A stretch of 64,000 nucleotides of DNA from a virus, in IMG/VR virus record IMGVR_UViG_3300023239_000322, positions 1-64,000 of that record. One strand, 5' to 3'. Under the pieces are notes generated by a model, which saw only the letters and a list, made by a program, of their open reading frames with translations, did no database searches and was not told the DNA's origin. Each line of letters begins with the position of its first letter. Positions within the stretch are counted from its first letter, which is position 1. The translations under genes were made by a program, and so were the position numbers. Shown in pieces: positions 3,640-17,882 of this stretch.

Positions 3640-5055
3640 ATGAAAACATTTAACGATTATCTAATAGCAGAAGAACACGCCAACGAAACCCCTAGCGTTG
3701 GTGATGTTTTTGAAATTGAAATGGCTCGTGACGAGACTTTAATTGAAACCACTGTAGTAGAAGTTTTAGAAGATGGTATTGTAATCAACGCAGATGACGC
3801 TGTTATGAAAATGTTTGAAGACGCTGGATACTTGCAAGAGTACAATACTGGCATGCCAGCACCAAGCGGTGGTAGTAAGAGTGCCATGGGCAGTGCTTAT
3901 AAAAAAGCAAACACCCAGCAGTCTAAGCCAGGCGAGTTGGCAGAAGGCAAGATGAAAGAATTACTTGGCGATATTAACGAACTCACACACGATGAGTTCA
4001 GCGGCAAGTACAACATGTCCAAAGACGAAGCAAGAGAAAAGTTTGACATCAAAGATGAAGAAGAACTTGATGAAATGTCAGCCATGCGTCGATTGGCCGG
4101 TATGATGCAAGACAAAGAAAACATTAAGAATACACGTATTCCCGGTCATGACGAACGCAGAATACAAGTTGATCTAATAGACCTTACTGATGAAGAATTT
4201 GAAGCCAAGCATAAAATGTCAAAGGCAGAAGCAGGTGAAAGGTTCAACGAAGCAAGTGATGCTAGTGCAGAAGAGGAAGATGATTTCCATACTGAACTAG
4301 ATGATCTTGTACATAAAACATTTGGACACAGCTCAGACGAAAAGAAAAAGAAAAAGAAAAGCAACAAACCATATGACTTGTACCACAAAACATTCTCTGA
4401 TGCTATGCAACATGCTTATGCATACGCAATGGAAAATCTTGGTATTGAGATTGATCCAAATGAGATTGATAACGAAGTTGCAATGGGTCCCCCAAAACCA
4501 GCCACTGGTAAAACAAACTCTTACCGCCTATTAGGAAAAGATGGAAAGAAGGCTATTCAAGTACAGGTTTACAACACAGGTAACTCGTACGAATTGAACA
4601 TGTACAAAGAACAAATTAACGAAGCAGATGTTGATAAAGGGTACATCAATATTGGTGGTGCTAGAGTAAAAGCTGATAAGGCTTCTATACTACAACATTT
4701 TAAGAAAACATTTCCTAATGTAACTAAAATTAAAAAAGATCCACAGCATGGTTGGGTTCCAGTTTTTGATAATGAGCTAGACGAAGCAGAATACCAAGGT
4801 CGTGAAGTTACACTTAACAAGCCAACACGTGGTGATGTTAAAAAGTCTAAGGTATATGTTAAAGATCCAAAGACAGGCAACGTAAAAAAAGTCAACTTTG
4901 GACACGGCGGTACAAGTGCTAAACGTGCCGGCCAAAAAACAATGAGTATTAAAAAGAGTGATCCAGCAAGAAGAAAGAGTTTTAGAGCAAGACACAATTG
5001 TGATAATCCGGGACCAAAGACCAAGGCTCGCTATTGGAGTTGTAGGGCTTGGTAG
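3640..5055 (+). CDS. Repeat-module virion-like protein with conserved Cys/Trp C-terminal domain
   Basis: 471 aa, starting MKTFNDYL, a common N terminus among marine T4-like virion proteins. Two copies of the ~33-residue LGDI/DLID...DEF..K..MSK.EA..(K/R)F module lie near residues 103-137 and 168-199; the protein at 3-938 begins with a third. A poly-Lys stretch follows near residue 235. The C-terminal ~80 residues form a basic domain ending with RARHNCDNPGPKTKARYWSC, a highly recognisable tail in marine myovirus proteins (I recall it as DUF6321, not checked); its Cys/His/Trp content suggests a small metal-binding or compact fold. Function unknown. Confidence 0.75.
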   Translation: MKTFNDYLIAEEHANETPSVGDVFEIEMARDETLIETTVVEVLEDGIVINADDAVMKMFEDAGYLQEYNTGMPAPSGGSKSAMGSAYKKANTQQSKPGELAEGKMKELLGDINELTHDEFSGKYNMSKDEAREKFDIKDEEELDEMSAMRRLAGMMQDKENIKNTRIPGHDERRIQVDLIDLTDEEFEAKHKMSKAEAGERFNEASDASAEEEDDFHTELDDLVHKTFGHSSDEKKKKKKSNKPYDLYHKTFSDAMQHAYAYAMENLGIEIDPNEIDNEVAMGPPKPATGKTNSYRLLGKDGKKAIQVQVYNTGNSYELNMYKEQINEADVDKGYINIGGARVKADKASILQHFKKTFPNVTKIKKDPQHGWVPVFDNELDEAEYQGREVTLNKPTRGDVKKSKVYVKDPKTGNVKKVNFGHGGTSAKRAGQKTMSIKKSDPARRKSFRARHNCDNPGPKTKARYWSCRAW

Positions 5056-5599: not shown

Positions 5600-6215
5600 C
5601 TTAGAAATTGTAGTCTGTGGCGACAGTTTCTGTTCACGTGATGAGAATGCACCAGGCAAACACTTCAGTGAACAACTTGAAGGCACAGTAACCAACCTAG
5701 CACGTGGCGGGATATCCAATTCCGCCATTTTTATGCAACTACACAAAGCATTAACACTAGATCCAGATGTAATCATCTATTCTGTTACAGACCCTGCCAG
5801 GATGACAGTACCAGCAAAACCAAATTGGAATGCACAGTTTTCCACGGGCGATCCACTAGCAAACATCAGATACAAAGTAGACGGACCAGAACCTTTTGTG
5901 AGCCATACTATCCCTTGTATAATGGGAGAAATGGATTTAGGCTTAGACCCTGCTGTAATTGACGCTGTTAAAAGTTATTTTAATGTATTGTATGATGCAA
6001 TGTTGCAGGACTTTTTGGATAGAGAAATGTTTGCAGGGTACAAGAGTCGTGCCAAACAGCAAAACATACAGGTAATCAACCTTAACAATCAAGTCACTGA
6101 AGTGTACGATGAAGCAAGAGATCTAAACGACGATCCTGTGCCTGAAGTGTTTCACACTACCTACCCTACCCAAACGGTAGCCGCTGAGAAGATTATGAAC
6201 TTGATCAACACATAA
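5565..6215 (+). CDS. SGNH/GDSL-type hydrolase-like protein
   Basis: ~216 aa. Block I (VVCGDSFCSRDE) gives the nucleophilic Ser, and NLARGGISNSAIF resembles the block II Gly and following segment of SGNH esterases; a C-terminal FHTTYPTQTVA segment could hold the late His. The family removes acyl groups from sugars or lipids, so a role in modifying host surface polysaccharide or virion glycans is plausible. I chose the ATG at 5565 (AAGAAG upstream) over the TTG at 5547. The stop codon at 6213-6215 lies inside a late-promoter-like box that serves the next gene. Confidence 0.7.
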   Translation: MKKQSNKWKRNNLEIVVCGDSFCSRDENAPGKHFSEQLEGTVTNLARGGISNSAIFMQLHKALTLDPDVIIYSVTDPARMTVPAKPNWNAQFSTGDPLANIRYKVDGPEPFVSHTIPCIMGEMDLGLDPAVIDAVKSYFNVLYDAMLQDFLDREMFAGYKSRAKQQNIQVINLNNQVTEVYDEARDLNDDPVPEVFHTTYPTQTVAAEKIMNLINT

Positions 6216-6223: not shown

Positions 6224-6415
6224 ATGACTATAGCAGAACTACAACGGTTAGCAGGCATTACTGAGAAGAAGAAATCAAAGTCTTTCAGTAACATCAGTTA
6301 TACTGCGGCCGAAAAAGCTAAAATAATGAAAAAAAGAAAAATTAAACCAGGCACGCCTGAATGGTTTAAGTTGTGGTTTTCGAGACCCTATCTCACAGGC
6401 GAAAAACCTTACTAA
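6224..6415 (+). CDS. Small basic protein, unknown
   Basis: 63 aa, Lys-rich. The N terminus (MTIAELQRLAGI) resembles the start of the acidic virion protein at 2873 (LNDLLKLSGM), and the C-terminal half has an aromatic PGTPEWFKLWFSRPY motif that looks conserved rather than random. There is no Shine-Dalgarno sequence; the ATG lies 5 nt after a late-type promoter box. It overlaps the stop of the minus-strand HNH gene by 4 nt. Function unknown. Confidence 0.6.
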   Translation: MTIAELQRLAGITEKKKSKSFSNISYTAAEKAKIMKKRKIKPGTPEWFKLWFSRPYLTGEKPY

Positions 6416-6939
6416 GCAACCTTTGCTTTTATACCTAAATACTGTTCCCACTTAGGGTCTTTGATTTCTACATGACTGTTGCGCCATGCTGATGCTAGTC
6501 CCCAATAGTCTGGTTTAAACGGTTTGCGTATCGGCTTTCTCAGTTTATCAGCCTTGCGACTATTGCAACTCTTACATGAAGTTACACAGTTCTCCCACGA
6601 CGTTTTGCCATTTAGGCTACGTGGGATAACATGATCTATGGATAAATCTTTGAAGTCAAACGTATCTGCACAGTACTGACACTGATATAAATCACGCAAA
6701 TAAACATTTGTTCTACTGAAACGTACATAACGTTTAGGATTAAAGTATTCCTTGGTAACTGCTACACTAGGCACATTTAAGGTAAGTTTTTCGCTGTTTA
6801 TGTGCCAATCAGGATAGGTTTCCAGCACTTGTATGCGGCCTAAGAACATCAATTTAACTGAGTGGTGCCAATGTATTACAGACAGCGGCAGTACTGAAAT
6901 GGGGGTGTAATCTTTGTTTAGTAGCAGAGTATCTGACAT
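6412..6939 (-). CDS. HNH endonuclease
   Basis: 175 aa from the ATG at 6939; the longer frame adds 16 residues with no support. Cys87/Cys90 and Cys122/Cys125 form a zinc knuckle around the HNH core (SIDHVIPRSLNG, then WENCVTSCKSCN). The N-terminal LLLNKDYTPISVLPLSVIHW segment is typical of stand-alone HNH proteins in phages and proteobacteria, often encoded near packaging genes, where HNH proteins can assist terminase cleavage. It is transcribed away from the terminase gene, from a TTGACA-N17-TATACA promoter ending 6 nt before its ATG, so the mRNA should be leaderless. Confidence 0.85.
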   Translation of the reverse strand: MSDTLLLNKDYTPISVLPLSVIHWHHSVKLMFLGRIQVLETYPDWHINSEKLTLNVPSVAVTKEYFNPKRYVRFSRTNVYLRDLYQCQYCADTFDFKDLSIDHVIPRSLNGKTSWENCVTSCKSCNSRKADKLRKPIRKPFKPDYWGLASAWRNSHVEIKDPKWEQYLGIKAKVA

Positions 6940-6974
6940 AAGTACTGTATATAAAGTATATATCATTATGTCAA
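6940..6974 (-). promoter_or_regulatory. Sigma70-type promoter for the HNH gene, leaderless geometry
   Basis: On the minus strand TTGACA (6969-6974) is followed by a 17-nt spacer, TATACA (6946-6951), six nucleotides and the ATG at 6939. The -35 box lies inside the first codons of the divergent terminase gene. Confidence 0.75.
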
Positions 6975-7615
6975 ACGAAGCAAACATTATTAAGTCTCCT
7001 TACCAGAAGGTAAGCTTCACAGAGGAGCAAATACAGGAATTCATGAAGTGTGCAGACCCAGACACCGGGCCGACCTTCTTTATGAGTAACTTCTTTAATA
7101 TACAGCACCCCACAAGAGGTAAGATGCTGTATAAGCCATTTGAGTACCAGGATAGACTGATCAACGCTTACCATACAAACCGATTCAGCATTAGTCTTAT
7201 GCCCAGGCAGACTGGTAAAACAACCACTGCCGCTGGGTACCTGCTATGGCGGGCCATGTTTAACCCAGATAGCACAATTCTTATTGCCGCACACAAGTAC
7301 ACAGGTGCGCAAGAGATTATGCAACGTGTTAGGTATGCATACGAACTTTGCCCGGACTATATACGTGCTGGTGTTGTTAGTTACAACAAAGGCAGTATAG
7401 ACTTTGAAAACGGATCACGTATTGTTTCACAAACAACCACCGAAACAACTGGACGAGGTATGAGTATTACACTGCTATATTGTTTAGGTGGAGACACTAT
7501 TGTTCGTATTCGAAACAAACAAACGTTGGCAGAAGAAGATATTACATTAAAGGATTTATGTATTAAACTTTATAGTCCAGATGAATATTCAGGTGATGAA
7601 TTTGCATTCGTATAA
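6968..7615 (+). CDS. terL: Terminase large subunit, N-terminal fragment fused to N-intein
   Basis: 215 aa. Residues 1-171 are the N-extein: the gp17 ATPase with Walker A LMPRQTGKTT near 78-87 and the segment leading to Walker B (ITLLY, 167-171). Cys172 (7481) begins an intein N-fragment with the block A pattern CLGGDTIV. The gene stops after only 44 further residues, so the ATPase cannot be completed without trans-splicing to the C-fragment at 8494. The last six residues, DEFAFV, copy the first extein residues that follow the splice junction (Cys-DEFAFV). Start at 6968 rather than 6914: the homologous region begins MSNEA and the extra residues overlap the divergent promoter. Confidence 0.9.
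   Translation: MSNEANIIKSPYQKVSFTEEQIQEFMKCADPDTGPTFFMSNFFNIQHPTRGKMLYKPFEYQDRLINAYHTNRFSISLMPRQTGKTTTAAGYLLWRAMFNPDSTILIAAHKYTGAQEIMQRVRYAYELCPDYIRAGVVSYNKGSIDFENGSRIVSQTTTETTGRGMSITLLYCLGGDTIVRIRNKQTLAEEDITLKDLCIKLYSPDEYSGDEFAFV
7481..7612 (+). other. Split intein, N-terminal part (IntN)
   Basis: 44 codons from Cys1 to the stop, of which only ~32 align with intein block A and the following strand (CLGGDTIV, then a short amphipathic ITLKDLCIKLYS). This split point is far earlier than in classic split inteins such as DnaE or gp41-1 (~90-120 residues) and matches the atypical class described for terminase inteins (for example AceL-TerL, IntN ~25 residues). The tail GDEFAFV is not intein-like. 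Confidence 0.85.
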
Positions 7616-7618
7616 ATA
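7611..7618 (+). promoter_or_regulatory. Exact T4-late promoter box TATAAATA before the intein-nested HNH gene
   Basis: All eight bases match the consensus. The box includes the TAA stop of the terminase N-fragment and is followed after 4 nt by the ATG at 7623. No Shine-Dalgarno sequence is present, so a leaderless late transcript is predicted. Confidence 0.65.
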
Positions 7619-7622
7619 CAGT

Positions 7623-8516
7623 ATGAACAAACTAGAGCAATTTAAACGTAGAAATCAAAAAAGAAACTCGCAACTATATTCAGATTACTTAACAGAAAAT
7701 ATAGATTATATACTTTGTCCAGTAAGTAACGAGCGATTAAGTATGATAAAAACAACATACATTGAACGTGTACTAGAGATGACCGTAGCAGAATATGACA
7801 AATTGTTCCCTGGTGTTAGAGGTGTAACGCCCGCCCGCCGAAAAAATATCAAAGATGGCTTAAAAGAAATAGATAAGACTAGTGGATTAACGAAGCACCA
7901 GCTGGCATGTGTTAAATCAAAACAGACATTATCCAGTCTGGATTCAGACGGTGTATCAGGATACGCCAAACTAGGCAAAAAGACCCGTGCTACTCATATG
8001 AACAATATAGACCAATTTGGCAGAAACGGTTATTCACAATTAGCAACACATGCTATTGTAAAAGGCAATAACACTAAGGTTAAGAAAGGAATTATATTAG
8101 ATCCTGCACTACGAAACGAATTTTACCGTTATAAGTCAATAGTATTATATCTTACCGAAAAACAGCGATCAGCTATAACAACTGGATACAAAACAGGAGT
8201 TGCTGGAGTTGCTGGGGCCTACCATATAGACCATATATATTCTATACTACAAGGATATAAAGATAATGTTAGTCCATTATTGATAGGTAGTAAAAGTAAT
8301 TTACAAATGTTGCCTTGGCATGATAATTTATCAAAACATGGTAAGTGTACTATAACCTTGGATACTTTATTCAACCGTGCTAGTTATAATATAGATAGAT
8401 CAAAAAGTGAATTTGATGTTTTTTTAAATATGATTCGTTATGACATAAAAGAATCTGCATTGGTTAGTGGTGCAATGCTAATAGAGAGGTTTAATGAAAC
8501 AAACTTACGCACCTAA
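7623..8516 (+). CDS. Free-standing HNH homing endonuclease between the intein halves
   Basis: 297 aa, strongly basic. An HNH-type core lies near residues 200-240: YHIDHIYS, an IGSKSNLQMLPW stretch, and the final Asn/His segment HDNLSKHGK. Upstream are Lys/Arg-rich and AAY-type segments that would bind DNA. A frame from 7581 is longer but overlaps the intein; 7623 follows the late box directly. The last 23 nt overlap the start of the terminase C-fragment. A homing endonuclease gene sitting between split-intein halves is the 'fractured gene' arrangement reported from marine metagenomes; it should cut intein-free terminase genes and spread the whole segment. Confidence 0.8.
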   Translation: MNKLEQFKRRNQKRNSQLYSDYLTENIDYILCPVSNERLSMIKTTYIERVLEMTVAEYDKLFPGVRGVTPARRKNIKDGLKEIDKTSGLTKHQLACVKSKQTLSSLDSDGVSGYAKLGKKTRATHMNNIDQFGRNGYSQLATHAIVKGNNTKVKKGIILDPALRNEFYRYKSIVLYLTEKQRSAITTGYKTGVAGVAGAYHIDHIYSILQGYKDNVSPLLIGSKSNLQMLPWHDNLSKHGKCTITLDTLFNRASYNIDRSKSEFDVFLNMIRYDIKESALVSGAMLIERFNETNLRT

Positions 8517-8829
8517 TACAGAATACCAAATTTTTACACCCAACGGTTGGGAAGATTTTGAAGGCATTTTTGTAAATGAAACTGCAAATAAAGACTCTCG
8601 AAAAATAACATTTAATGATGAGTCGTTTATTATTGCTACCCTTGAGCATCGATTTTTTATCAGTAATACTGAAATTAAAGTAAAAGATATTGTACTAGGT
8701 GATAAATTAGATTCTGAAAATACTATTAAAATAGTAACAGCATTAGAAGATATGGTATTAGAAGACACATACGAAATATTTAATGCAGAGAATCATGTCA
8801 TACTAGCAAATAAGATTAATTCTCATCAA
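8494..8829 (+). other. Split intein, C-terminal part (IntC)
   Basis: 112 residues, starting just before TPNGWEDFEGI and containing the block B-like THR/LEHRFF region (EHRFFIS), the block F segment (DTYEIFNAENHVILANKI) and the terminal block G SHQ. The first extein residue is Cys (8830-8832). The intein ends in Gln instead of the usual Asn, a rare but known variant. The start has an AGAGAGG ribosome-binding site inside the upstream HNH gene. Confidence 0.88.
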
Positions 8830-9882
8830 TGCGACGAGTTCGCATTTGTTCGACCCACCATTGCTAGAGAGTTTTGGACATCCATATCACCCACACTTAG
8901 TACTGGTGGTCAAGCAATCATTACATCAACACCAAACAGTGACGAAGATCAGTTTGCGTTTATATGGAAACAAGCCAACAAGAGTGTAGACGAGTATGGT
9001 AACCCAACCAAAAACGGGTTAGGTATTAATGGTTTCTATGCGTACAAGTCAGACTGGTGGGAACATCCTGACAGGGATGACAAGTGGAAAGAAGAGGAAA
9101 TGGGGCGTATCGGTGAAGAACGCTTCAGACGAGAACACGGATGTGAGTTCTTAATTTACGACGAAACACTGATTAACAGCACCACACTGATTGACATGGA
9201 AGGGAAAGGTCCCATAGAGAAACAAGGACAAGTGCGTTGGTATAAAAAACCTCAAAAAGGCAAAACATACGTAATTGGGTTGGATCCAAGTCTTGGCACA
9301 GGTGGTGATCCCGCGGCTATACAAGTATTTGAATTGCCTACAATGATACAATGTGGCGAATGGCAACACAACAAAACACCAATACAAAGACAAATTGGTA
9401 TCCTAAAGGAAATTTGTGACTACATTGCGGAAATGACACAAACACCCAATAACATTTATTATAGTATAGAAAACAACACACTTGGCGAAGCAGGACTGGT
9501 AGTGATCAGTGATATGGGTGAAGAGAACATCAAAGGCACATTTTTAAGTCAGCCTGTTACCCCGGGTTCGTCTAGACTACACAGAAAAGGGTTTACTACT
9601 ACAAATAGGTCTAAGCTAACAGTGTGTGCAAAGTTTAAAAGTTTGATCGAAAGTAAGAAAATGATTATCAACAGTCAAAACTTAATTAGTGAACTTAAAA
9701 CATTTGTGGCGCACGGTGCTAGTTTTAGCGCAAAACAAGGCGAACGTGATGATTTGGTCATGGCCAGTTTATTGGCATTAAGAATGACACAGGCACTACA
9801 GAGTTTTGACAGTGAACTAGATAGTCACATGCGTGATGGTGCAGATGATTTCCAAGCGCCGATGCCCTTTATAATGATATGA
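8494..9882 (+). CDS. terL: Terminase large subunit, C-terminal fragment preceded by C-intein
   Basis: 462 aa. Residues 1-112 are IntC; the extein runs from Cys113. CDEFAFVRP holds the Walker B Asp-Glu, so splicing joins ITLLY to CDEFAFV and rebuilds the ATPase motif. The RNase H-like headful nuclease follows: GLDPSLGTGGD, YSIENNTLGEAG and ERDDLVMA carry the three acidic metal ligands expected for gp17. In the cell the product should power DNA packaging into the prohead and cut the concatemer. The insertion is directly before the catalytic Walker B carboxylates, the most conserved point of the ATPase, as expected for an intein. No separate small terminase gene is seen here. Confidence 0.92.
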   Translation: MKQTYAPNTEYQIFTPNGWEDFEGIFVNETANKDSRKITFNDESFIIATLEHRFFISNTEIKVKDIVLGDKLDSENTIKIVTALEDMVLEDTYEIFNAENHVILANKINSHQCDEFAFVRPTIAREFWTSISPTLSTGGQAIITSTPNSDEDQFAFIWKQANKSVDEYGNPTKNGLGINGFYAYKSDWWEHPDRDDKWKEEEMGRIGEERFRREHGCEFLIYDETLINSTTLIDMEGKGPIEKQGQVRWYKKPQKGKTYVIGLDPSLGTGGDPAAIQVFELPTMIQCGEWQHNKTPIQRQIGILKEICDYIAEMTQTPNNIYYSIENNTLGEAGLVVISDMGEENIKGTFLSQPVTPGSSRLHRKGFTTTNRSKLTVCAKFKSLIESKKMIINSQNLISELKTFVAHGASFSAKQGERDDLVMASLLALRMTQALQSFDSELDSHMRDGADDFQAPMPFIMI

Positions 9883-13044: not shown

Positions 13045-14181
13045 ATGAATCCAGTTAAATCTATTACATTTGGTCTTGATCCTTCAGCACCACCTGCTTT
13101 CTTGTTGGATTGGGAACTAACTAAAAAATGCAATTTAGATTGTTCTTATTGCGGCATCGGCGAGTTTGGCGGACACGACAATAGCACACAGCACCCACCA
13201 CTGGAAGAGTGCGTAAAGTCAATTGACTTTATGTATGCGTATGTGGACCTGTACATGCAGTACAGAAAAGAAAGTAATAGAAAAGTTGTATTAAATGTTT
13301 ACGGTGGCGAAAGTTTAGTACATCCACAAATTCTAAGAATCTTAGAACTTGTCAGAGAAAAATATCAACAGTATAAAGATCGATGGGAACTAACTGTTAC
13401 CTGTACAACAAATGGTATTGTAGGTACACGGATGTGGAGTAAGATTATTCCACATATAGATGAGTTTATTGTAAGTTATCATCCAGAGAACATACCCAAG
13501 CAAAAAGAGCAGTATAAGAAAAACATCCTGCAACTGAAAAAGATAAACAAACGTTTCAAGTGTGTGATGCTAATGCACAACGATAAAGAAATGTTTGATG
13601 ACGTAGAACGTATGGTACAGTATTGCAAGGACAATAACCTACCATTCTTTCTTAAACGGCTAGACAACACAGAAGAACAATGGGCCTATACCGGCAAGCA
13701 GTTTCAAAAAATACAAGCAAACTTCACAAGTAACGAAGTTGAAGGATCCGACGAAAAAGTATTAAGCATAGCAAAAGGTAGAGCTTGCTGTGGCGGACGT
13801 AAGATGTGTGTAAATGGCAACTATAAAGAAAACTTGCTGTATATTAACAAGCAAGGATTCAAAGACTGGAACTGTAGTGTTAATTGGTACTTTTTGTTTC
13901 TAAGACAGTATAACGGTAAAGTTTATTCTAGCACAAAAGATTGTTTAACGAATGTAACTACTAACCGTGTTGAGCCGTTGGGTAATATTGATAATTACCA
14001 GGTAATGTTAGACACACTTAGAAAACAACTAGAAACTAAAAGCATGCCAGTAATCAAATGCGTAAAAAGCATTTGTGTTTGTGGATATTGTGCGCCAAAA
14101 GCTACTACAGAGTCTGAACTAAACGAACTTTTGAAATATAGAATAGACATTAATGTGTTAAAGTATGCTAAGTCAGATTGA
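13045..14181 (+). CDS. Radical SAM protein with C-terminal cysteine-rich (SPASM-like) region
   Basis: 378 aa. The [4Fe-4S]-SAM motif is Cys29-x3-Cys33-x2-Cys36 (KKCNLDCSYCG), followed by VYGGESLVHP, the GGE motif that binds the SAM amino group. The C-terminal third has further Cys groups (RACCGGRKMC, then CVKSICVCGYC) that could bind auxiliary Fe-S clusters. Such enzymes make radical modifications of peptides or sugars. It is the first gene of a cassette in which each gene overlaps the next by 2-22 nt, so products are probably made in fixed ratio. There is no clear ribosome-binding site, as the gene begins directly behind the gp32 terminator. Confidence 0.85.
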   Translation: MNPVKSITFGLDPSAPPAFLLDWELTKKCNLDCSYCGIGEFGGHDNSTQHPPLEECVKSIDFMYAYVDLYMQYRKESNRKVVLNVYGGESLVHPQILRILELVREKYQQYKDRWELTVTCTTNGIVGTRMWSKIIPHIDEFIVSYHPENIPKQKEQYKKNILQLKKINKRFKCVMLMHNDKEMFDDVERMVQYCKDNNLPFFLKRLDNTEEQWAYTGKQFQKIQANFTSNEVEGSDEKVLSIAKGRACCGGRKMCVNGNYKENLLYINKQGFKDWNCSVNWYFLFLRQYNGKVYSSTKDCLTNVTTNRVEPLGNIDNYQVMLDTLRKQLETKSMPVIKCVKSICVCGYCAPKATTESELNELLKYRIDINVLKYAKSD

Positions 14182-16213: not shown

Positions 16214-16752
16214 CAATAACAGGACACAGTGCTGGCATTGGCCGAGCATTTGCAAAAATTTACAAAGAACAAGGACATGAAGTTGTTGGACTTAGTCGTC
16301 GTGATGGTAATAACATTAGAAACACAATGAAAATGTTAAAATATATAGAGCCTTGCGACTTGTTTATTAATAATGCACAAGCTGGGTTTGCACAAACAGA
16401 ACTATTGTTTGCTGTGTTTGGAGCATGGCAAGGAAAACTACACAAGAAGATCGTTAATATTAGTACACTTATGACAAGTGAACCAGTCAGTTGTTTGCCT
16501 GGGTTTGATATGTTAAAGTATCACGTGGAAAAAACAACACTAGAAGAAGCCATCCGCCAACTACGTGGACTGCATACTCTGCCTAAACTTTGCTTAGTCA
16601 AACCAGGAAAGGTAAACACACAAGGAGACAGTGGTGTAAACCCCGATGCATGGGCTAAACGTATTGTTGACATATTAGATTCAGGTAATGATATGCAAGT
16701 AGAAGAAATTGCCATTGGAGAATATTGGGAATGGAACCCAAAGATTACTTAA
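16201..16752 (+). CDS. Short-chain dehydrogenase/reductase (SDR)
   Basis: 183 aa. The N-terminal Rossmann motif ITGHSAGIGRAFA (TGxxxGIG), the NNAQAG strand, a Ser in NISTL and the YHVEK catalytic Tyr-x3-Lys pair are all present. The protein is short compared with the usual ~250 aa, mostly from a shortened substrate-binding end. It would use NAD(P)H to reduce or oxidise an alcohol or ketone. Overlaps of 13 nt upstream and 22 nt downstream tie it to the cassette. Confidence 0.85.
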   Translation: MARIAITGHSAGIGRAFAKIYKEQGHEVVGLSRRDGNNIRNTMKMLKYIEPCDLFINNAQAGFAQTELLFAVFGAWQGKLHKKIVNISTLMTSEPVSCLPGFDMLKYHVEKTTLEEAIRQLRGLHTLPKLCLVKPGKVNTQGDSGVNPDAWAKRIVDILDSGNDMQVEEIAIGEYWEWNPKIT

Positions 16753-17882
16753 CTAATCGTAACTTTTGTCCTATCCCGTGGACTGGGTTAATGTATAACT
16801 TTGACGGTAATGTTAAAACCTGTATCAGATCCAGTGCGCCCATTGGCAATATACGTGAACAAGGTATAGAACAGATATTAAACGGCGAAAACAATCAAGC
16901 AACACGGGTCAACATGTTAAACAATAAGCCAGGTGAACGCTGTGATCCTTGTTATGAACTAGAGCAAGGGGGAAATAAGTTTGATATTATTAGTGATAGA
17001 GTTTTTTACCTGCGCGAACTCAAGCAGGTGCCACTAGACACGTACGATAAGGTAGATGCGCATAGATTAGAAAAAATAGATGTGCGTTGGACCAATCTCT
17101 GCAACTTTAGTTGTGTGTATTGTAACGCAGACTTTAGCAGTCAATGGGCAAACGAGTTGGGTGTAAAAATAGACACACCCAACAAACAACAGCGAGACGA
17201 CTTCAAAGCATATATCTTCAAACATGTGGATACACTAAAACATGTTTACATGGCTGGCGGCGAGCCCTTGTTAATGAAGGAAAATGAAGAACTACTAGAA
17301 AAACTATTATTAGTCAATCCAGATGTTAATTTGCGCATCAACACCAATTTAAGTCATACAAATACTCGTGTGTTTGATTTAGCGTGTAAGTTTAAGAACG
17401 TACACTGGACAGTTAGCGCAGAAACAATGGGCGACGAGTACGACTATATACGACACGGGGGACAGTGGGCAACATTTTGTCGCAATCTAAGAAAAATAAA
17501 AGATTCGGATCATAAAATTACATTCAACATGTTGTATTTTGTACTTAATCCCTTCAGTGTATTTAAATTTGTGGACAAGTTTATGAACGATTGGAACTTC
17601 CACCCAAACGCTTTTGTAATTGGCCCATTATTGTTTCCTGACTACCTAAATATTAGACATTTACCAGATAAGATGTTACAATTAGTCAAGCAAGAGTTAG
17701 AACAACGCATTGCAGAACATCCAGGATTTTTATTGGAAAATAGTTATCAAAATTTGTTGCGTTATATCGAGCAACCAATTGAAAAGAATTTAGCAGGAAC
17801 ATTTGAACAGTTAGCAGTAATGGACGCCAGACGTGGTGTTGATAGTAGTAAAATATTCATAGATCTATATAAGGAAAAATAA
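16731..17882 (+). CDS. Radical SAM protein, twitch type
   Basis: 383 aa from the ATG at 16731. An N-terminal auxiliary cysteine set (FCPIPWTGLMYN, TCIRS, ERCDPCYE) precedes the radical SAM core Cys-x3-Cys-x2-Cys (LCNFSCVYCN, near residues 124-131) and the YMAGGEPLLM motif. It has the same domain order as the protein at 14743 but is not a close copy, so the cassette carries at least two distinct radical steps. It ends 2 nt before the uvsX start. The last ~100 residues are helical and lack cysteines. Confidence 0.87.
   Translation: MEPKDYLTNRNFCPIPWTGLMYNFDGNVKTCIRSSAPIGNIREQGIEQILNGENNQATRVNMLNNKPGERCDPCYELEQGGNKFDIISDRVFYLRELKQVPLDTYDKVDAHRLEKIDVRWTNLCNFSCVYCNADFSSQWANELGVKIDTPNKQQRDDFKAYIFKHVDTLKHVYMAGGEPLLMKENEELLEKLLLVNPDVNLRINTNLSHTNTRVFDLACKFKNVHWTVSAETMGDEYDYIRHGGQWATFCRNLRKIKDSDHKITFNMLYFVLNPFSVFKFVDKFMNDWNFHPNAFVIGPLLFPDYLNIRHLPDKMLQLVKQELEQRIAEHPGFLLENSYQNLLRYIEQPIEKNLAGTFEQLAVMDARRGVDSSKIFIDLYKEK

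Follow-up and report, generated by a model that had tools for sequence, protein, structure and literature searches.

A promoter fused to half of a predicted cutting site suggests self-repression of the endonuclease in a fractured phage terminase intein

In the fractured genes reportedly described by Dassa et al. in 2009, a split intein is accompanied by a free-standing endonuclease gene lying between the halves of a phage gene. Among atypical split inteins, AceL-TerL and GOS-TerL have N-fragments of only 25 and 37 residues (PMC11766414). In phage T4, the operator of the homing endonuclease I-TevI shares 15 of 20 positions with the enzyme's homing site and overlaps a late promoter; binding of I-TevI to the operator was measured to repress, while cutting there is reduced about 100-fold (PMC2988022). 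I-TevII and I-TevIII have a similar arrangement, with homing-site-like operators overlapping promoters (PMC2988022), and target-like operators have been described for these three T4 group I intron endonucleases. Here we analyse a terminase (TerL) locus in the window, the 64,000 nucleotides at positions 1–64,000 of a 141,414-base virus record (IMGVR_UViG_3300023239_000322), in which the halves of a split intein flank an endonuclease gene that is preceded by a copy of half of its presumed homing target.

The gp17-type terminase gene of the window is split within its T4-like Walker B motif (ITLLY-CDEFAFV) by an atypically split intein, with the endonuclease gene between the halves. The phage, of a marine type, would produce the essential motor that packages its DNA as two pieces for the intein to join. 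This layout is of the already known fractured-gene and AceL-TerL kind; the most informative part of the locus is the DEFAFV copy beside the promoter. On balance, we think it probable that the locus is a mobile fractured terminase intein with an endonuclease that represses itself in the manner of I-TevI, through half of its homing site placed over a late promoter. The arrangement thus suggests a selfish element that switches itself off by means of a promoter fused to half of its predicted cutting site. The features of the locus are as follows.

6968–7615, plus strand: open reading frame (ORF) of the TerL N-half, with Cys1 at 7481.
6968–7480, plus strand: TerL (gp17-type) N-extein, 171 codons, from Walker A to the Walker B strand ..ITLLY; ~90% identity to the corresponding part of intein-free relatives L005–L010.
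7481–7594, plus strand: N-terminal intein fragment (IntN), about 38 residues (CLGGDTIV..SPDEYSG) from Cys1 at 7481; placed by alignment of the IntN of relatives, contiguous inteins (L017, L026) and fold.
7595–7611, plus strand: GATGAATTTGCATTCGT, repeating the C-extein start and representing half of the presumed homing target; in the window read in frame as the N-half tail DEFAFV.
7611–7618, plus strand: TATAAATA, a box resembling T4 and cyanophage late promoters, 4 nucleotides (nt) before the endonuclease ATG; from enriched-word statistics.
7613–7615, plus strand: stop codon of the N-half, within the promoter box; from the sequence.
7581 or 7623 to 8516, plus strand: endonuclease ORF, between the terminase halves.
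7623–8042, plus strand: N-terminal domain of the endonuclease, about 140 amino acids, presumed to bind DNA and conserved with the element; start from alignment of homologues.
8043–8516, plus strand: C-terminal HNH-like nuclease domain (HIDH..N..N), stop included; replaced by a Vsr-like domain in some relatives.
8483–8489, plus strand: AGAGAGG, a Shine-Dalgarno-like sequence for the C-half, lying within the endonuclease gene; from the sequence.
8494–9882, plus strand: ORF of the TerL C-half, 112 residues of intein and then Cys+1 at 8830.
8494–8829, plus strand: C-terminal intein fragment (IntC), 112 residues, with a block B-like TLEH, ending in ..NSHQ; from alignment, profile and fold.
8830–9882, plus strand: TerL C-extein, starting CDEFAFV (Cys+1), with the RNase H-like nuclease domain, stop included; from Pfam, PHROG and intein-free alleles.
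8833–8849, plus strand: the genuine C-extein copy of the target half, GACGAGTTCGCATTTGT.

The window has two occurrences of the degenerate form of the copied sequence, GAYGARTTYGCNTTYGT, at 7595 and 8833, where shuffled sequence is expected to have none. Across relatives (designated by L numbers) the element takes the form TGAYRARTTYGCNTTYG-TATAAATA-N4-5-ATG, directly before the endonuclease gene, the spacing being four or five bases in most loci. In the deduplicated set it is carried by 17 of 22 distinct endonuclease-positive loci at a cut-off of 18/25, and the divergent L075 has a gapped version. It is absent from re-fused or endonuclease-less inteins (L003, L017, L026, L053 and L065), decayed in L014 and reduced to a remnant in L052; Fisher's test of element against endonuclease presence gave p = 0.03 at the same cut-off with relics counted as presence. 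An unbiased scan of IMG/VR for the element returned 41 contigs, all with the element at this spot, directly before this endonuclease and, wherever IntN was detected, 113–125 bases after Cys1. In L014 an unrelated ORF (MRPLLFYTNDNDYLQ...) has replaced the endonuclease gene at 4344–5000, and the intein halves are kept.

The sequence-only reading had the N-half ending 44 residues into the intein; its Cys1 at 7481 stands, and the rest divides into about 38 intein residues and the DEFAFV copy of the C-extein start. That tail might in principle act as a peptide, mimicking the C-extein to stabilise or hold the unspliced N-half until IntC arrives. In the window, L062, L070 and L231 the copy is in the N-half frame and the protein ends in DEFAFV, DEFGFVDK or DEFAFVHK. 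We regard such a function as very improbable: the N-half frame ends at the element's first codon in 13 of 17 distinct loci, so that the peptide is never made, and the tail is absent from endonuclease-less inteins that look splice-competent by sequence. The element lies in frame 0 of the N-half at three loci, frame 1 at 13 and frame 2 at one. A peptide-tail function was rejected because of these differences in frame between loci, from which it also follows that the element is conserved as DNA.

The pattern of variation is what a DNA-binding site for such an enzyme would predict. Among 24 distinct copies (a chance hit in L162 being left out), all five wobble positions of GAY GAR TTY GCN TTY (DEFAF) vary, compared with one of the 12 other positions (hypergeometric probability 12/12376, ~0.001); such a bias towards wobble positions is expected if the protein that reads the site accepts synonymous changes to its target. 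The wobble states do not track the C-extein of their own locus, so the element is evidently kept separately from it. In L238 and L239, where the extein reads CDELAFV, the element codon likewise encodes Leu (GATAACCTGGCTTTCGTC). Recent gene conversion between element and C-extein was rejected, as their wobble states are uncorrelated. Conservation through the endonuclease frame (MTSLHLYKY..) was also rejected; stops interrupt that frame in L025, L055 and L062, and the variable bases would be middle codon positions there.

The copy could instead be a functionless scar, left when an endonuclease gene entering the intein brought along a piece of the terminase target. It sits exactly at the fracture point, in the same strand and order as the target, and one illegitimate recombination event could produce it. 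A scar would drift at every position, whereas the non-wobble bases are kept across relatives whose endonucleases are down to 37% identical; the copy also decays upon loss of the endonuclease (L014), and recurs at a second site with other types of nuclease. We therefore think a scar unlikely.

This second TerL split-intein site is ..RREYG/C..N/CEFLVFDETL. A copy of its C-extein precedes the endonuclease gene in L100, L064, L063, L103 and L104: in L100 the copy TGAGTTCATAATATTTGACGAAATGATAAATAATATTATG matches the extein TGAGTTCTTAGTATTTGATGAAACTTTAATTAATAG at 33 of 42 nt, and the copies in the other four were each matched at the amino-acid level by 0 of 300 shuffles. The arrangement GATAAATA-N5-ATG is present in L100, L063, L103 and L104. 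The nucleases with a copy are of the HNH plus NUMOD3 or the GIY-YIG plus NUMOD3 type, so that the target-copy design appears, by sequence, to have recurred independently at this site with other nucleases. Considered together, the presence of the element, its pattern of variation, its independence from the C-extein, its covariation, its single location and its recurrence make it, in all probability, a functional DNA element. Elsewhere at the second site, endonucleases of Pfam family DUF7487 lie between the split-intein halves (L056, L060, L106–L108 and L111, with only L056 scanned), which suggests that DUF7487, to which Pfam assigns no function, is a family of homing endonucleases.

The promoter box TATAAATA is late-promoter-like; NATAAATA is reported as the late promoter of cyanomyoviruses (PMC2984593). 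Within 60 bases upstream of ORFs, no 7-mer of this genome is as enriched as ATAAATA (17 of 31 copies, 15-fold, p 5e-15), and among 6-mers TAAATA ranks first, above Shine-Dalgarno words. In the 141-kb record (the window and L077–L080), NATAAATA is followed by ATG at exactly five bases in 8 of 31 copies (p 7e-8), control words behaving differently; examples are at 6211, 10416, 36723 (minus strand) and 48810. With such strong statistical support, NATAAATA-N5-ATG is probably an enriched promoter and start arrangement of the phage's own. T4 late transcription starts about six bases past the box. A start at the same distance here would make the messages leaderless, and the spacing accordingly suggests leaderless late mRNAs in this phage.

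The endonuclease itself was less readily classified. The HNH label of the sequence-only reading has behind it an HIDH..N..N-like motif and weak matches (PHROG endonuclease VII, 1e-3); 18 homologues gave no match in Pfam, Pfam and PDB sequence searches with the family found nothing, and the fold search returned Cas9 HNH domains at non-significant E values. L178 and L198 are 99.4% identical over a stretch that takes in 1,946 bases before the element and ends 430 bases after the element's start. Between that point and the opening base of the C-extein they are unrelated, and beyond it the identity returns to 97.8%. The exchanged piece comprises the nuclease domain (HNH-like versus Vsr-like) and IntC (34.6% amino-acid identity, with SHQ versus TKN ends), and the exchange leaves IntN, the element and the first ~134 endonuclease residues intact. 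The same exchange is seen in L214, a relative of the window itself, with an N-terminal domain 87% identical. Because the element and N-terminal domain stay when nuclease and IntC are exchanged, the element tracks the N-terminal domain rather than the nuclease, a pattern that binding of the element by that domain would predict. It also follows that one IntN must serve two IntCs; the N-fragments of GOS-TerL and AceL-TerL are interchangeable in vitro (PMC11766414).

These exchanges bear on a further alternative, that the copy serves not as a repressor site but as a second site for nicking or cutting, at which the endonuclease opens its own donor locus and so promotes recombination or cassette exchange. 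The cassettes swapped between the near-identical phages L178 and L198 do lie downstream of the element, and I-TevI cuts its own operator, if weakly, at about 100-fold below its homing site (PMC2988022). Nevertheless, the copy holds no more than the right half of the target, self-cutting within an essential gene would be costly, and a cutting site leaves unexplained the fusion to a promoter 4–5 nt from the start codon. We give this alternative little weight.

For the terminase itself, the coordinates and layout of the sequence-only reading held: N-half 6968–7615 with Cys1 at 7481, C-half 8494–9882 opening with 112 intein residues before Cys+1 at 8830, and the endonuclease ORF between them, in the manner of a fractured gene. 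The N-half matches Pfam Terminase_6N (2e-9) and PHROG TerL (4e-52), the C-half Terminase_6C (7e-6) and PHROG TerL (1e-77). Intein-free alleles (L005–L011) are 88–93% identical in both exteins, L011 containing only 33 residues of the N-extein, and join exactly at ITLLY-CDEFAFV, the Walker B predicted from the joined exteins; this fixes the extein boundaries, with the N-extein at 6968–7480 and the C-extein from 8830. The layout is not an assembly error, because L001 and L002, contigs of other assemblies, have 100% identical DNA across the locus.

The relatives include intein-free alleles, split inteins with an endonuclease, split inteins without one (L003, L053 and L065) and contiguous inteins (L017, L018 and L026–L028). 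The splicing residues Cys1, block B TxxH, penultimate His and Cys+1 are conserved (CLGGDT.., ATLEH and SHQ/C in the window and relatives). The terminal Gln in place of Asn, noticed from the sequence alone, is confirmed, being constant among relatives with this type of IntC; Gln-ended inteins can splice, as PolII inteins do. Modelled by AlphaFold2 with rows of IntN plus IntC from relatives, the contiguous L026 intein is predicted to adopt a HINT fold (predicted local distance difference score, pLDDT, 82.9; predicted template-modelling score, pTM, 0.80), and its single internal low-confidence stretch, residues 49–58, is the split position of other relatives. The top Foldseek matches of this model are inteins only, including VidaL (target-length template-modelling score 0.76) and gp41-1 (0.81), with Cat also matched.

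The sequence-only reading had proposed that a lack of intein-profile matches to either half would tell against an intein. Single-sequence searches of the halves are weak (Pfam Intein_splicing at E 0.05 for IntC, no Pfam match for IntN), which would have made that test misleading; a profile of the family matches CatC at 1e-8 and gp41-1 at 4e-8. With the intein-free alleles, the contiguous relatives and the L026 fold, these family-profile matches uphold the early-split intein. IntN (about 38 residues) and IntC lie on separate ORFs in the window, and given the lengths of the AceL-TerL and GOS-TerL N-fragments cited above the intein is probably a further member of that kind. From homology, the empty site and the fold, we infer that the two terminase halves trans-splice. 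Non-covalent assembly of the halves without splicing, as in the genes-in-pieces NrdA of phage Aeh1, is scarcely credible. Although insertions of free-standing endonucleases in phage genes can yield functional two-piece enzymes (NrdA; PMC2988022), and the terminal residue of IntC is Gln rather than Asn, what interrupts the gene can be recognised as an intein by its Cys1, TxxH, penultimate His, Cys+1 and HINT fold; contiguous versions of it exist; and a break between the Walker B strand and the catalytic Asp-Glu makes unspliced assembly implausible.

In L017, L018 and L026–L028 the intein has been re-fused to one ORF after loss of the endonuclease, with a palindromic scar at the re-fusion junction in L026. 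A contiguous LAGLIDADG intein at Walker A accompanies the split intein at Walker B in L052, L055 and L068, and L052 has an additional split intein closer to the C-terminus of the terminase. At the Walker A site the inteins of relatives are mostly contiguous and of the LAGLIDADG type.

Under the mechanism that we propose, the N-half (TerL 1–171 plus the ~38-residue IntN) and the C-half (the 112-residue IntC plus the rest) would associate and trans-splice to restore the Walker B ITLLY-CDEFAFV. The gene between them would encode a homing endonuclease directed against the intein-free TerL allele at Walker B, transcribed from the T4-like late promoter TATAAATA, 4–5 nt before the ATG, to give a nearly leaderless mRNA. 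Its N-terminal domain would bind the target-half copy abutting the promoter and so block the endonuclease's own promoter, and the missing other half of the site would prevent cutting at the element. Gain of the endonuclease with its operator-promoter may have put a stop codon in the intein and thereby created the split.

Several observations weigh against an autorepressing endonuclease of this kind. Five endonuclease-positive lineages have no element: L049, L050, L051 and L069, in which the endonuclease is N-terminally extended, and L073, a partial match. The sequences compared are related, so that the counts of variable positions are not independent. The CDEFAYV lineages (L062, L176 and L189) retain TTT in the element, and covariation with the extein is thus seen in one lineage only. 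At the second site the copy is weak in L069 and L102, and DUF7487-type endonucleases have no C-extein copy. T4 gp55 and gp45 were not found by phmmer in the 141-kb contig; gp55 evolves rapidly, and part of the phage may be missing from the record. The model of the endonuclease has no significant PDB match in the fold search. Finally, its cleavage site, DNA binding and repression are all matters that we infer.

Other genes were noted around the terminase and in its relatives. A second, genuine HNH gene (Pfam HNH_5, 4e-16) at 6412–6987 on the minus strand of the window lies divergently to the terminase N-half, and the two genes share the first 20 bases of the N-half. Two radical-SAM genes lie near a UvsX-like recombinase, at 13045–14181 and 16725–17882. 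L015, L016, L033, L051 and L052 have an extra intein-free terminase ATPase-like paralogue (~32–39% identical) directly upstream of the fractured gene. In the isolate jumbo phage Salicola phage SCTP-2 (MF360958; L086, L088 and L089) the terminase is in three pieces 40–210 kb apart on both strands, and a homologue of the endonuclease lies beside the C piece, without a target copy.

If the proposed regulation is correct, homing-site self-repression may be a general solution for a DNA-cutting gene kept inside an essential phage gene, the design having apparently evolved again at two sites within a single gene, where the nucleases are of the HNH-like, HNH plus NUMOD3, GIY-YIG and Vsr-like types. 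We see an even chance that these loci represent a general class in T4-like phages: split-intein endonucleases whose off switch joins the C-extein target half to a nearly leaderless late promoter (NATAAATA-N4-5-ATG) and is bound by the conserved N-terminal domain, in which nuclease and IntC are exchanged as a cassette while IntN, operator and DNA-binding domain stay, one IntN splicing with two widely differing IntCs. For uncharacterised endonucleases, the likely target half could then be read directly from the DNA, and an origin of split inteins is suggested, in which operator and stop codon are inserted along with the endonuclease. The naturally swapped IntN/IntC pairs are a resource for the protein engineering of promiscuous short split inteins. 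The literature searched, which did not include Dassa et al. (2009), yielded no self-target operator at a locus of this kind, no recurrence of one at two sites and no exchange of nuclease–IntC cassettes.

Compared with the atypical split inteins AceL-TerL, GOS-TerL, Cat and VidaL, the intein of the window shares its type of host gene with the TerL members, a short N-fragment (about 38 residues here) and the HINT fold (VidaL 6vgv, Cat 6dsl); it differs in ending in Gln, in having the same IntN found with two IntC families ~35% identical, and in that a natural locus with endonuclease, promoter and target copy is described. The split intein with an endonuclease between the halves is shared with the fractured genes, beyond which the locus adds the target-half copy fused to a late promoter and the modular exchange of nuclease domain and IntC. 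The PolB split intein of the isolate phages MIJ3 and Callisto (PMC6892783) likewise belongs to a fractured gene with an endonuclease, but by eye no target copy precedes that endonuclease. There is a parallel with I-TevI, I-TevII and I-TevIII of T4, where, as in the window, a phage promoter shortly before the endonuclease gene is overlapped or adjoined by a homing-site-like operator; here that operator would be the 17-nt copy directly before TATAAATA. The T4 enzymes belong to group I introns, the enzyme of the window to a free-standing gene flanked by the two split-intein halves; the copy covers just the C-extein half of the presumed target. Thus the locus probably works like I-TevI regulation without being a member of the I-TevI family, since the interrupted gene is split at the protein level by an intein rather than by a group I intron, and the main-site enzymes lack GIY-YIG.

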